This document shows, piece after piece, positions 32,446 through 38,587 of a DNA stretch of 40,525 nucleotides; within the stretch, counting starts at the first letter, position 1, and each line of letters opens with the position of its first letter. The notes under the pieces are model-generated. The model was given only the letters and a program-made list of their open reading frames with translations, searched no databases and was not told where the DNA came from. The translations under genes and the position numbers were made by a program. This DNA is from Fibrobacter sp. UWB5 (lineage in GTDB: Bacteria; Fibrobacterota; Fibrobacteria; Fibrobacterales; Fibrobacteraceae). The stretch covers positions 1 to 40,525 of the forward strand of contig NZ_MWQH01000013.1 in NCBI RefSeq assembly GCF_002210295.1. Reading direction: 5' to 3'.

Positions 32446-33420
<975 letters not shown>

Positions 33421-33450
33421 CCTTCGCGCCCAATTGTATTGGACTTGAAG

Positions 33451-33486
33451 AGCCTGCCCTGAGCTTGTTTCAGGGTGGGCTTTTTT
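33451..33486 (+). terminator. mdh terminator
   Basis: AGCCTGCCCTGA (33451-33462) pairs with TCAGGGTGGGCT (33470-33481), with a two-base internal mismatch, around a 7-nt loop, followed by a T-run. Confidence 0.85.
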
Positions 33487-33497
33487 GTAGTTACGCG

Positions 33498-33576
33498 AAG
33501 TGTGGACTTTTTATTTTGAAATTTTGATAAAACCTGCATAATTCTGTTTTATCTTACTAAAAGTGTGGACTTTTTA
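33498..33576 (+). promoter_or_regulatory. direct-repeat and inverted-repeat array upstream of GH43 genes
   Basis: Two perfect copies of AAGTGTGGACTTTTTA (33498-33513 and 33561-33576) lie 63 bp apart, six helical turns. Between them is a perfect inverted repeat, GATAAAAC (33526-33533) and GTTTTATC (33546-33553), with half-sites 20 bp apart. The second direct repeat ends 12 bp upstream of the -35 box. The layout suggests regulator binding, probably by an activator, but no regulator gene is in the window. Confidence 0.6.
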
Positions 33577-33588
33577 ATGAAAAATCTA

Positions 33589-33617
33589 TTGACTTTTGGA
33601 GGGTTTAAAGATATATT
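33589..33617 (+). promoter_or_regulatory. GH43 promoter
   Basis: TTGACT (33589-33594), a 17-nt spacer and TATATT (33612-33617) form a strong promoter. The leader of about 24 nt carries CAGGGAG before ATG 33648. Confidence 0.7.
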
Positions 33618-33647: not shown

Positions 33648-35648
33648 ATGGTTATGGGCCTGGGAAAATCTTTTGGTTTCGTGGCGCTATTGGGAGCGTC
33701 GCTTGGTGTTGCAACGTCCTTCGCGGCCGATTGGTACGCGAAGGACAATTTGCAGCCAGGGCATGACCCGAGCATGATCCGCTTTGAGGACGGCTACGCC
33801 CTCATGAGCACGAACAACAATCTGCAACTGTGGACATCGGAAGATGCCTACACTTGGCGCGACCACAAGTCGACCGTGAGCGCCATTCCGCAGTGGGCCT
33901 ATACCTACGCGCCCAAGACCGAGGGCATCTGGGCTCCGGACCTTTTCTACATGAACGGCGAATACCGCGTTTACTATTGCGTGTCGGAATTCGGCGTGCG
34001 CAATTCGGCTATCGGTTACCAGTCGACGACCTCGATTATGCCGGGAAGCACTGGCTATGGCTGGAAGGACCATGGCCATGTTTTCCATACGAAGCAGGGG
34101 ACAGATTCGTATAACGCCATCGACGCCGACGTGGTCAAGGATACCGAGGGCAATTACTGGATGGCTTTCGGTTCGTTCGGACTCGGCATTCAGTTGATCA
34201 AGCTGGACGCGACTACGGGCTACCAGGCGAGCGACGACAAGACGGTCTACAACATTGCCCGCCGTACGAGCAAGGAAAGCGGCGGCGCCGAAGAAGGCCC
34301 GAGCCTGATTGAGCATAATGGGCAGTACTTCTTGTTCACGGCGTGGGACAAGTGTTGCCAGCAGGGCGCAAATATCGAGCAGACTACCTACAAGACGGCT
34401 TACGGCCGCGCGGACAAGGTGACGGGCCCGTACAAGGACCGCGCCGGTTACAATATGGCGACGGGCGGCGGCACGATTCTTTTGGAACGCTACGGACGCT
34501 ATGTGGGCCCGGGCGGTGGCGAGGCCTTCCAGGACTTGAACCGTGTGCGCTTTGTGCATCACTACTATGATTTGAATGGCGACAAGTACAACCATATTCA
34601 TATTCGTGATGTCGTGTTTACCGAGGATAACTGGGCTGAGATGGGACAGCCCTTCCTCGGGCGTTATTTGAGTGCCGAAGTCGAACATGGTGCGCTGACG
34701 CGTGCGGTGTCGGGCGACCTTGCAATCACGCGGAGCAATACGGCCTCGAATGGGGAATATCTCGCTTACGTGAATACCGCAGGTTCCAAGATTCGCTTGC
34801 CGATGAACATTATGCAAGCGGGTAACTACCTGCTGCGTTACCGCTACGCTAACGGTGGCGATGCTGCCGCGGAGCACAAGGTGACGGTGAATGGCAAGTC
34901 GCAGACGGTGGCGCTCCCGCCGACAGGTTCTTGGGGCACGTTCCCCGAAAAGTCTGTGGTGATGGTGCCTGCGACACTCAAGCGCGGCGGCAATTTCATT
35001 GAGATTGAACCTTCGCCGAACGGCAACTTTGCGGAACTCGATCGCATCGATTTCTTGCGCGTGATTCGCGATACGATTCCGGCGAACGGCTTTGACAACG
35101 GCATCCGTGTGCGCCTCACGAAGGACGACGAGTTCGCCATCAAGGATGGCGGCTACGCGATTTTCGAGAACGTGGTGACGGATTCCATCGTGGCTACGGA
35201 AGTGGCTGTCGAGGTGAAGAGCCTTACGGGCGGCAAGCTCAGCATTCGTGACGGTAAGAAGGATGGGACCGTTCTTTCTGAATGCGAACTGGTGGCGGCC
35301 AACGAGAAATTTACGTCTAAGGGCTGGACGACGGTGAACTGCTCGAATCTTAAGAGCATTGGCGGCGTGAAGGACTTTTACCTGACAGCATCCGGCGTTT
35401 CGGGCGAAGCGATTGTGAAGAACATCGTGTTTGCGAGTTCATCGGGAGAAATCGTTTGCAATCAGGAACCGTGCGGTGACCCGATTTCTAGCTCCAGCGG
35501 CAAAGACATTACCTCGAGTTCTTCGGGTACGACCGCGATTGCCCCGCGTGCTGTACGCCACGATTCTCCGGCATCCGCCCGCAAGGGCTACCGCGACCTC
35601 AAGGGCCGTAGCTTTGACAAGCAAATCCCGTACCGGGTGATGTTCTAG
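33648..35648 (+). CDS. secreted GH43 endo-arabinanase-like enzyme
   Basis: The product is a 666-residue exported enzyme that probably cuts alpha-1,5-arabinan in pectin. The signal peptide ends at about residue 26 (SFA). A five-bladed GH43 domain runs to about 340: catalytic base Asp40 in GHDPSMI, the IWAPDLFYMNGEYRVYY blade, AIDADVVKD with the third acidic residue, and Glu in EEGPSLIEH as the likely acid. CC at WDKCCQ and GGGT are arabinanase hallmarks. The GPGH loop is changed to GPGG. A CBM6/35-like domain (~350-480), a second CBM6-like domain (~485-610), a short Ser linker and a basic C-terminal tail ending QIPYRVMF follow. That tail is shared with other Fibrobacter secreted glycanases. 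The next gene is a paralogue. Confidence 0.87.
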   Translation: MVMGLGKSFGFVALLGASLGVATSFAADWYAKDNLQPGHDPSMIRFEDGYALMSTNNNLQLWTSEDAYTWRDHKSTVSAIPQWAYTYAPKTEGIWAPDLFYMNGEYRVYYCVSEFGVRNSAIGYQSTTSIMPGSTGYGWKDHGHVFHTKQGTDSYNAIDADVVKDTEGNYWMAFGSFGLGIQLIKLDATTGYQASDDKTVYNIARRTSKESGGAEEGPSLIEHNGQYFLFTAWDKCCQQGANIEQTTYKTAYGRADKVTGPYKDRAGYNMATGGGTILLERYGRYVGPGGGEAFQDLNRVRFVHHYYDLNGDKYNHIHIRDVVFTEDNWAEMGQPFLGRYLSAEVEHGALTRAVSGDLAITRSNTASNGEYLAYVNTAGSKIRLPMNIMQAGNYLLRYRYANGGDAAAEHKVTVNGKSQTVALPPTGSWGTFPEKSVVMVPATLKRGGNFIEIEPSPNGNFAELDRIDFLRVIRDTIPANGFDNGIRVRLTKDDEFAIKDGGYAIFENVVTDSIVATEVAVEVKSLTGGKLSIRDGKKDGTVLSECELVAANEKFTSKGWTTVNCSNLKSIGGVKDFYLTASGVSGEAIVKNIVFASSSGEIVCNQEPCGDPISSSSGKDITSSSSGTTAIAPRAVRHDSPASARKGYRDLKGRSFDKQIPYRVMF

Positions 35649-35659: not shown

Positions 35660-35729
35660 AATGTTTGCTTGCAAGGTGAAACTTTTTAGTGTATTTTTGA
35701 TTTGTGGTGTATGGGTAAAGCGAGGAAAA

Positions 35730-37619
35730 ATGAATTTCGGGATTGGCAAGGCGTCTGTCGTAACGACTGCGGCAATACTTACTTTGGTTTGTTCGGCTTT
35801 TGCGGCCGATTGGTACGCGAAGGAGACGCGCTGGGCAGGGCATGACCCGGACATCATCCGTTACGAGGACGGCTATGCGCTCGCGACGACGGACAACCAC
35901 ATGCTGATGCAGTTTTCCGAGGATGCGCTGAACTGGAAGAACGGCGATCCCGCCATGCCGGAATTTTCGAAGTGGCTTTACAAGTACGCGCCGAATATGA
36001 TTGACATCTGGGCGCCGGACATTCATTACATTGGCGGGGAATACCGCATGTACTATTGCGGTTCCGAGATGGGCATCCGTTCATCGGGCATGGGGTTCAT
36101 GGCGAGCAAGGAAATCGACCCGACCAAGCCCGGCTACGGCTGGACGGACATGGGCGAGGTGATTCACACGGTCAAGAGCGATGCCTACAACGCGATTGAC
36201 GCGGCGGTGCTGAAGGACAACGATGGCAAGGTCTGGATGGCGTTCGGTTCGTGGGGCACGGGTATCCACATTCTGGAACTGAACGAAGAAACAGGCAAAG
36301 TGAAAGACGGTGCGAAGATGATCAACATCGCGAACCGCGGCGGTTCGGGCATCGAGGGCGCAAGCCTCATCGAGCACGACGGCTACTACTACCTGTTTAC
36401 GGCGTGGGATAACTGCTGCAAGAAGGGCGCTGACCTCGAGAATAATTCCTACAAGACGACGGTGGGGCGCTCCAACCGCATTGACGGCGGGTATGTGGAC
36501 CGCAGCGGCAAGGCGCTCCTGAATGGCGGCGGCACGATTCTGTTGAGCCGATACGGACGCTACTACGGGCCTGCGGGCGGCGAGGCGTTCCAGGACGTGA
36601 ACCGCCAGCGTTTTGTAAACCATTACTACGACAAGAATGACGGCGGAAATTCCTACATACAAGTTCGCGACATCGTCTATACCGATGACGGTTGGCCGGA
36701 ACTCGGGCAACCGTTCCTCGGGCGTTACCTGAGCGCCGAAGCGGAACAAGGCGCTTTGACTCATGTGGATATTTCAAGCAGCTCGATGGCCTCGAACGGA
36801 GAATTCTGCGCCTATATCAATTACGAAGACAGCAAGATTCGTTTGCCGATGATTATCCCGCAGGCGGGCGACTACCTGATTCGCTACCGCTATGACAATA
36901 ACTGGACCGAAGACGGCGCGAACGGCAGTTCCCACTTTGTGAGCATCAACGGCAAGAACCAGGAAGTGGATCTGCCGCTGACAGGCGCGTGGAGCGCGTT
37001 CCCCGAGAAGTCGGTGGTGTACATTCCCGCGAAACTTAAGCGCGGTTCGAATTTTATCGAGATTACGAAGGGCAAGCATTATGCGGAACTTGACAGGCTT
37101 GATTTCTTGCGCATCATTCGCGATACGATTCCGGCGAACGGCTTCGATAACGGTATCCGCGTGCGACTCACCGAGAAAGATGAGTTCGCCATCAAGGATG
37201 GCGGCTATGCAATTTTCGAGAACGTGATTACGGATTCCATTGCGGGCCCGGGCGTGCTTGTGCAGGTGAAGAACGGCGCAGGCGGCATACTGAACATCCG
37301 CAAGGATAGCAAGAAGGGCGACGTGATTTCCAAGTGCGAATTACCCTCGGCGGGTGATGCGAGCAAGTGGATTGACGTGCGCTGCTCCAACCTGCCGGAG
37401 CTCAAGGGCGTGCAGGACTTCTACCTGACCGCAGAAGGCCTCGGCGGCGAAACTCTCCTCGGTAACATCAAGTTCGACGAAGGCTTGAAGGATTCGACGA
37501 CAGCCATCCGTCGCATTGCACCGCGCAACAATATGCAGTTGCCTGCTCAAAACAAAAAATACCGCGACCTCAAGGGCCGTCGGTATAATAAGCAAATTCC
37601 GTATAGGGTGATGTTCTAG
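35730..37619 (+). CDS. secreted GH43 endo-arabinanase-like enzyme, tandem paralogue
   Basis: The product is a 629-residue paralogue of the preceding gene, with the same order of signal peptide (ends AFA), GH43 domain, CBM6-like, second CBM6-like domain and basic tail (QIPYRVMF), but no Ser linker. The catalytic base is Asp39 in GHDPDII; the pKa-modulating Asp lies in NAIDAAVLKD and the acid Glu in GIEGASLIEH. The arabinanase loops WDNCCKK and GGGT are kept, and GPGH is again changed, to GPAG. The start is set by GAGG 5 nt before ATG 35730 and by a normal signal peptide; an upstream in-frame ATG at 35661 would give an odd extension. It lies 81 nt after its paralogue and is likely co-transcribed. 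Its stop is 2 nt from the convergent gene's stop. Confidence 0.87.
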   Translation: MNFGIGKASVVTTAAILTLVCSAFAADWYAKETRWAGHDPDIIRYEDGYALATTDNHMLMQFSEDALNWKNGDPAMPEFSKWLYKYAPNMIDIWAPDIHYIGGEYRMYYCGSEMGIRSSGMGFMASKEIDPTKPGYGWTDMGEVIHTVKSDAYNAIDAAVLKDNDGKVWMAFGSWGTGIHILELNEETGKVKDGAKMINIANRGGSGIEGASLIEHDGYYYLFTAWDNCCKKGADLENNSYKTTVGRSNRIDGGYVDRSGKALLNGGGTILLSRYGRYYGPAGGEAFQDVNRQRFVNHYYDKNDGGNSYIQVRDIVYTDDGWPELGQPFLGRYLSAEAEQGALTHVDISSSSMASNGEFCAYINYEDSKIRLPMIIPQAGDYLIRYRYDNNWTEDGANGSSHFVSINGKNQEVDLPLTGAWSAFPEKSVVYIPAKLKRGSNFIEITKGKHYAELDRLDFLRIIRDTIPANGFDNGIRVRLTEKDEFAIKDGGYAIFENVITDSIAGPGVLVQVKNGAGGILNIRKDSKKGDVISKCELPSAGDASKWIDVRCSNLPELKGVQDFYLTAEGLGGETLLGNIKFDEGLKDSTTAIRRIAPRNNMQLPAQNKKYRDLKGRRYNKQIPYRVMF

Positions 37620-37621
37620 GG

Positions 37622-38587
37622 TTACTTCAGCCAGTCCTTGTACTTGATCCAGATGTGCAGCCAGATTCGGGCGACGGAATCAATGGCATCGCTAAAAATC
37701 ATGGTGCTGTACATCTCGAAATATTTGCCCCATTCGGTTTCCGTTTCGAATTCCTTCATGGATTTCGTGTTTTCAAAATTTTCGGGAATCAAGAAATACG
37801 AGAACAGGTAGGAATACTGCGAAACGACGCTCATGTAGTCCCACACGTTATTGTTCTTGCCTCCCCAGCCGTGCATGTACTTGCGGGATGCAATGTCGTT
37901 TTCCACGTTCGTGGTAAACGAAGATGCTGTCAGCGGTAGCGGGTATCCGTCAGGGTCGTAGAAGAATCGGTTGTTGTCCTTGTCGATTTTGTATGCCTTG
38001 CTGATTGCGTCTTCCCATTTCTTTTCAATTCCGCCGTGAATGCCCTTGCCGTCGGAATAGGGGCGGCAGTCGCAGTGCAGGGGCATGTGGCAGTCGGCAA
38101 TGTAGTGGCTCAAGATAAAGAATCGCATGGCGATGTGGTTGCCGGAGGTGGCGATGGGACAGCCCTTTTCTTCGCGGTTGAGCATCTTGAAATTGTCGAT
38201 GATGCTGTGCGAAATAGCTTCGCAGCGGTCTGCGCAGTTGCCACCTTCAATTGTGTAGGGTTTGCCCTTGAGCGGCGATTCCTTGGACATCTTGGTGTAA
38301 ATGCTATGGGTCGAAGGCAAACTGCCGAAGGTGTTGTAGGTGCCGTCTTCGGCGGGGCGGTATTTGACGATGTGGCTCGTTGCCATGTCCTTGAAAACAT
38401 CGTCGGGGTACCAGGCTCCCTTGATAACGAAGTCGCGGTAGTTCTTGAACCATTTGACTAGTGCCTTGGCTTCGGTGCGGACTTTATCGGTGACGCCTGT
38501 AATCACATTTTCGTCGGTGGTGGTGGCGATAATTTCCAAACGCTTGATTGCCATAAAGGCAATCCATGCATGAGAATATTTTTTCAC
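37622..38587 (-). CDS. phospholipase C / P1 nuclease-like protein
   Basis: The product is a 321-residue protein resembling the zinc-dependent phospholipase C / S1-P1 nuclease superfamily, a helical fold with a three-zinc site. Visible elements are SHAWIAFMAI at the N-terminus, GAWYPDD, NCADRCEAISHSIIDN and a central RFFILSHYIADCHMPLHC, whose HxxxDxHxPLH pattern is the zinc core. Secreted members keep a ligand Trp at the mature N-terminus, but here no signal peptide is seen, so the protein may be cytoplasmic or differ in metal use. The start is a GTG, supported by AAGGAG 8 nt upstream and a TATATT box at 38618-38613. No partner gene is apparent. Confidence 0.65.
   Translation of the reverse strand: MKKYSHAWIAFMAIKRLEIIATTTDENVITGVTDKVRTEAKALVKWFKNYRDFVIKGAWYPDDVFKDMATSHIVKYRPAEDGTYNTFGSLPSTHSIYTKMSKESPLKGKPYTIEGGNCADRCEAISHSIIDNFKMLNREEKGCPIATSGNHIAMRFFILSHYIADCHMPLHCDCRPYSDGKGIHGGIEKKWEDAISKAYKIDKDNNRFFYDPDGYPLPLTASSFTTNVENDIASRKYMHGWGGKNNNVWDYMSVVSQYSYLFSYFLIPENFENTKSMKEFETETEWGKYFEMYSTMIFSDAIDSVARIWLHIWIKYKDWLK

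Follow-up and report, generated by a model that had tools for sequence, protein, structure and literature searches.

Pectin degradation is controlled elsewhere by KdgR and, in Bacteroides, by hybrid two-component or SusR-like PUL regulators. Direct-repeat operators are exemplified by araI1-I2, where AraC binds asymmetric half-sites, the proximal one touching the -35 element, with upstream copies placed at whole helical turns. The TIGR02147 family, on which much of what follows turns, is named for Fibrobacter succinogenes. Although this lineage counts among the main fibre digesters of herbivore guts, in the literature searched we found no regulator, operator or regulon for its plant-wall degradation; in F. 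succinogenes S85, GH43 and PL1 genes respond to substrate and growth rate, in an expression paper that names no motif or regulator (PMC6204037). Here we analyse a direct repeat that precedes two GH43 genes in the window (the whole 40,525-nucleotide stretch of Fibrobacter sp. UWB5 DNA considered here), its counterparts in the genus, and the protein that may read it.

A direct repeat conserved upstream of pectinase genes

The 16-mer AAGTGTGGACTTTTTA occurs in two exact copies on the forward strand (33498-33513 and 33561-33576) whose starts are 63 bp apart, as a first-pass annotation of the window had reported. No 16-bp direct repeat arose in 5000 dinucleotide shuffles of the 141-bp region, and no third copy with at most one mismatch was found in the 3.36-Mb genome. 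The same annotation had placed the repeat before a TTGACT-17-TATATT promoter and a GH43 gene, and both are there: the promoter starts 12 bp past the second copy, and the ORF at 33648 encodes a GH43 protein with a CBM6 domain (Table 1). On the other side lies a malate/lactate-dehydrogenase-family gene (32479-33420), followed by a hairpin that a simple terminator scan missed and whose loop exceeds the limit of that scan. The GH43 genes are followed by a 321-aa minus-strand ORF (37622-38587) with no Pfam or NCBIfam match.

Table 1. Features around the repeat, and putative targets in the same genome (positions without a contig prefix are those of the window).
Feature	Position	Strand	Remarks
Terminator-like hairpin and T run	33449..33487	+	Read from the sequence; ends the upstream dehydrogenase-family gene
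Putative operator site 1, AAGTGTGGACTTTTTAT	33498..33514	+	Core TGTNGACTTTTNAT from 33501; core retained upstream of orthologues
8-bp inverted repeat, GATAAAAC/GTTTTATC	33526..33553	.	Judged incidental
Putative operator site 2, AAGTGTGGACTTTTTAA	33561..33577	+	Core from 33564; 63 bp past site 1
Sigma-70-like promoter, TTGACT-17-TATATT	33589..33617	+	Same distances in orthologues
Putative target gene 1, GH43 + CBM6 (PF04616, PF03422)	33648..35648	+	Domain matches
Putative target gene 2, GH43 + CBM6	35661..37619	+	Probable co-transcription; 12-bp gap from gene 1
Putative target: GH43 + CBM6 genes 1 and 2 above	C13:33498	+	R1 46 bits
Putative target: PL11-PL11-GDSL-GDSL operon	C3:60675		R1 45 bits
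Putative target: GH43-GH43-GH43-GH53-PL9-PL11 cluster	C4:48269		R1 34 bits
Putative target: PL10 pectate lyase + pectinesterase (CE8)	C1:642563		Divergent pair, 65 bp apart

In a DNA search covering 80 genomes of the genus, the region upstream of the GH43 orthologues proved to be conserved only in parts, and the aligned upstream regions yielded a core, TGTNGAC[TA]TTTNAT, present in two direct copies 63–65 bp apart. When the 80 genomes were scanned for two cores at any spacing from 48 to 78 bp, direct pairs of the core AAATGTNGACTTTTWAT appeared in 51 of them, at about 92 places, and the reversed-pattern control gave none, so that the motif lies upstream of orthologous genes above chance. Spacings of 63, 64, 65 and 66 bp accounted for 21, 22, 8 and 10 of the 92 (61 together), with lesser peaks at 53–54 and 76–78 bp; the 77-bp spacing arises, in at least one case, from a third site located 24 bp ahead of a 53-bp pair. 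Columns that the pattern did not force were also conserved (AAA preceding the core and WAT following it), and the N of the core was A, G or T but never C among 94 sites, whereas the spacers between paired sites were unconserved. In two other genera the pair again lies upstream of PL11. Read from these alignments, the element is an asymmetric 14–17-bp AAATGTNGACTTTTWAT, arranged in direct repeat at an interval of about six helical turns. Signals for regular intermediate copies at 21-bp intervals between the sites were weak (offsets -19 and +23) and clear in few loci (L194, L225 and L232). One GH43 group (L195, L197 and L227) carries an inverted copy of the site, AAATGTCTACAAAA, about 23–24 bp past site 1 (near 1520–1535 in L195 and L197), and the element may therefore also work in the other orientation.

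The first-pass annotation had proposed a second regulator bound to an 8-bp inverted repeat between the two copies, with 20-bp spacing. The arms are present (GATAAAAC at 33526-33533 and GTTTTATC at 33546-33553), although 20 bp is the distance from start to start and the loop is 12 nt. We set this repeat aside because inverted repeats of 8 bp with loops of 3–30 appeared in 11% of shuffles (P about 0.11) and because the arms are broken in all three of the closest relatives. Of the proposed layout, then, the conserved, phased putative regulator sites stood and the second regulator did not. A DNA hairpin or RNA element was likewise rejected (single-strand fold z only -1.7, no Rfam match), as was a palindromic reading, AAAGTNNNNACTTT, which occurs at seven places in the genome with no excess over its reversed control, only one of them being this locus. 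A 14-mer scan of public genomes, from which the lineage of the window was perhaps excluded, gave the scattered, unrelated matches expected of so short a word.

Rather than at random sites unrelated to promoters, which the annotation had named as evidence against its own reading, the other sites occupy promoters of genes for pectin degradation. Genes after non-coding pairs are nearly all secreted rhamnogalacturonan-I pectin enzymes (PL11 and GH43): among first genes, 35 ORF rows were PL11-like, 20 GH43-like and 3 of a further GH43 type, counts that include repeat matches at one locus. A few pair matches, mostly at other spacings, fall within coding sequence or ahead of genes with no such role and look fortuitous. 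For the genome of the window, targets were listed from pattern searches and searches with R1, a sequence profile built from 46 promoters. R1 matched positions 33498-33578 with 46.4 bits (E 1.7e-11 over the whole genome) and found three places far above the rest (C13:33498, C3:60675 and C4:48269); the exact core TGTNGACTTTTNAT occurs three times in this genome, always within the two strongest promoters. The Pfam names of the listed targets (RGL11, GH43, GH53, PL9-like, PL10, pectinesterase and GDSL) point to a shared function across PL11, GH43, GH53, PL9, PL10, CE8 and GDSL proteins, which jointly cover the rhamnogalacturonan I backbone and its arabinan and galactan side chains.

Two further structures accompany some of these sites. 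About 30–60 bp past the -10 element, PL11 leaders (L170, L182, L206, L245 and L254) contain another conserved dyad, close to TTGTCTTTGGACTACAA, which also occurs before PL10 in the genome of the window (L264) and may serve as an additional operator or form an RNA hairpin. In G025:C31 (L220, about 1000–1180), a site pair and TATATT adjoin a TIGR02147 gene other than the candidate described below and are followed by a GC-rich hairpin; no ORF is present over some 300 bp there, and the stretch may encode a small RNA that is controlled in the same way.

A candidate regulator from the TIGR02147 family

Two pairs that adjoin TIGR02147 genes prompted a search of this family, for which a literature search found no role (TIGR02147 was unnamed and DUF4423 merely listed). 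The gene with sites upstream of it in G074, encoding protein P0002, has one clear orthologue in the genome of the window (C2:400905) and one in the genus g7 (G103), each far above the paralogues, and the three copies form a single clade (support 100/99) among 43 paralogues. The candidate matches both TIGR02147 (Fsuc_second) and Pfam PF14394 (DUF4423): P0002 scores 350.7 bits (E 5.5e-105) for the former and E 1.9e-27 for the latter, and the copy at C2:400905 scores 348.8 bits for TIGR02147, both far beyond the curated cut-off of 50 bits. The orthologue is present as one copy per genome in 63 of the 80 genus genomes and in three others. Judged by its linkage, upstream sites and co-occurrence, the TIGR02147/DUF4423 orthologue at G000:C2:400905 (G000 being the genome of the window), hereafter the pectin-linked TIGR02147 protein, is the most likely regulator; the first-pass annotation had recognised no known regulator's motif here. 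The TIGR02147 genes beside the C4 cluster of the same genome (C4:49792-50598, L294, a paralogue about 1.5 kb from the GH43/GH53/PL9/PL11 genes) and beside the G025:C31 pair were considered and rejected, both falling outside the regulator clade.

In 23 genomes the regulator gene lies downstream of a pair, typically by 6–10 kb and at most by 16 kb, with gene and pair on the same strand for all 24 linked pairs; in G074 it comes right after the pair. Two sites 23–24 bp apart lie upstream of 26 of 31 orthologues, and in four of the other five another gene closely precedes. Locus L377 illustrates the order: site pair, PL11, GDSL, GDSL, two sites, regulator, lipoprotein. Such linkage might mean that the gene belongs to the pectin cluster and not that its product binds the sites; we disfavour that reading because unlinked regulators keep the sites at their own promoter, as in the clade of the window's genome, where the regulator gene lies outside the pectin cluster and two sites before its promoter are retained. 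Overlapping the regulator gene is the gene of a lipoprotein that has a pectate-lyase domain and carries the signature VAGGTEAESTIAL (L377:7245-9847; L352:1501-3924). Other TIGR02147 genes may be paired with lipoproteins of this kind.

Sites and regulator also share a distribution. Pairs spaced by 63–66 bp occur in 33 of the 63 genomes with the regulator versus 1 of the 17 without it (Fisher P 6e-4, too small a value because related genomes were treated as independent), the single exception being a genome that is 70% complete. Sites before GH43 homologues were found in 24 of 29 genomes with the regulator versus none of seven without (P 1e-4, again too small because kinship is ignored); both counts take genomes as independent, whatever their relatedness or the position of the operon. 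One genome, G096 (77% complete), has a PL11 pair and no detected orthologue, and two, G094 and G107, have the orthologue and no strict pair.

An AlphaFold model of the protein, of middling confidence (pLDDT 75, pTM 0.56), aligns over residues 8–90 to XRE-type helix-turn-helix proteins (3pxp_A, Z 8.4, rmsd 3.0, 81 aligned) and over residues 106–183 to winged-helix regulators (Z about 7); a Foldseek search of the PDB with this model returned nothing below E 0.05. A basic tail, RRGRKRR, is present in the regulator clade and absent from the aligned paralogues. Two unlike DNA-binding parts per chain, if the model is right, would suit an asymmetric site arranged in direct repeats.

Promoter geometry and the sign of control

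About half of the non-redundant promoters have a -10 element that starts 25–26 bp past the core of site 2, which makes site 2 overlap the -35; in most PL11 promoters, too, the promoter-proximal site sits on the -35. The GH43 class to which the window belongs has its -10 at 46–49 bp and a TTGACT of its own, with site 2 about two turns upstream of the -35 (in the window, measured from the core of site 2, the -35 starts at 25 bp and the -10 at 48 bp). Most loci fall into one or other of these two fixed geometries, and rare classes have the -10 at 16, 36 or 59 bp. The classes lie roughly one turn apart, with a mean resultant length of 0.87–0.92 at 10.5–11 bp, a suggestive sign of one-turn stepping given that there are few independent classes. 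The spacing peaks and these steps of about 10–11 bp support a phased arrangement of the sites, both relative to one another, as proposed earlier, and relative to the promoter.

This layout leads us to prefer activation, because stepwise -10 distances fit, although they do not prove, a protein that must face RNA polymerase. Placement of site 2 14–16 bp before TATATT, which we found in one set of regulator promoters and one GH43 group, counts against activation and is more typical of repression. The same regulator and regulon might accordingly be arranged for repression, with the protein covering the -35 or the spacer, co-operation or looping between two sites tightening its hold, and pectin fragments releasing it. 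The overlap with the -35 in most PL11 promoters speaks for such an arrangement, as do the position of site 2 between -35 and -10 in the regulator promoters of linked clusters and the fact that XRE-type proteins are often repressors. We nevertheless regard repression as rather unlikely, if deserving of serious weight: in the window class, a good -35 follows site 2 at a distance of about two turns and the start lies about 124 bp beyond site 1, a placement usual for activators, and stepping of the -10 distance is expected of a protein that faces polymerase.

Other readings question the protein or the sites themselves. The sites could be read by a different regulator (of the AraC, LytTR or another TIGR02147 type), the linked TIGR02147 gene being merely a regulated member of the cluster. 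Direct repeats with two-turn periodicity do resemble AraC or LytTR operators, and the genome of the window encodes 3 HTH_18 proteins and 24 TIGR02147 proteins. AraC-type regulators are unlikely, however, because G103, a 99% complete genome with the pair before PL11, has no HTH_18 (PF12833) match. A single TIGR02147 clade is both linked to the sites and shares their distribution. From these searches for HTH_18 and TIGR02147 proteins, we consider a different regulator unlikely overall. A further reading, which we find very improbable, takes the motif for a -35-like part of the promoter itself, extended or repeated and perhaps recognised by an alternative sigma factor, with no separate regulator. 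The motif TGTNGAC contains TNGAC, and roughly half of the non-redundant promoters have site 2 on the -35, but the window class has site 2 plus a separate TTGACT, no conserved -10 follows site 1, and a conserved spacing of 63–66 bp is unexpected for a -35 copy. To local duplication or chance we give practically no credence: short matches are common in AT-rich intergenic sequence, yet conservation of the repeats extends through the genus and to two further genera, with unforced columns kept and spacers not, which refutes such an origin.

The reading that we prefer is that the pectin-linked TIGR02147 protein is a site-binding activator of a rhamnogalacturonan-I pectin regulon, and taken as a whole we think it probable. 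Both repeats would be binding sites of this one transcription factor, which also has two sites before its own gene. The protein would occupy both sites on one face of the DNA and contact RNA polymerase from the promoter-proximal one, so that the pectinase genes would be switched on once pectin or its products are sensed. A broader proposal, possible but doubtful, is that TIGR02147/DUF4423 proteins are lineage-specific transcription factors of the Fibrobacter family, where each member has its own direct-repeat operator and each monomer two different DNA-binding domains, one XRE-like and one winged-helix; the present member would activate in response to pectin, in partnership with a pectate-lyase-domain lipoprotein that signals pectin at the cell surface. 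What is gained is a specific DNA site, a list of pectin-enzyme targets and one candidate from a family whose uncharacterised members number at least 24 per genome. Sites for other TIGR02147 paralogues could be assigned by the same approach.

Relation to known regulators

TIGR02147 has been named only as a paralogous family, and we propose a site, a regulon and a role for one of its members. Among described systems, XRE-family regulators such as HigA, DdrO and P22 c2 resemble the modelled N-terminal part of the candidate (residues 8–90 align with Z 6.6–8.6), and HigA profiles match residues 24–69 weakly (E 0.14–0.25). Unlike that family, the candidate has about 300 aa, a second, winged-helix-like part and the basic tail, and its putative sites are direct repeats, whereas XRE sites are usually palindromes. 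The element itself is closer to those of AraC-type activators, with which it shares asymmetric half-sites in direct repeat, contact with the -35 and copies at whole turns, but the candidate is not an HTH_18 protein and one genome with the site has none. With KdgR and the Bacteroides PUL regulators, the proposed system would share a dedicated regulator for pectin-degrading enzymes; those regulators belong to other protein families and use other operators, whereas here the putative targets are scattered over separate operons and the candidate belongs to TIGR02147.
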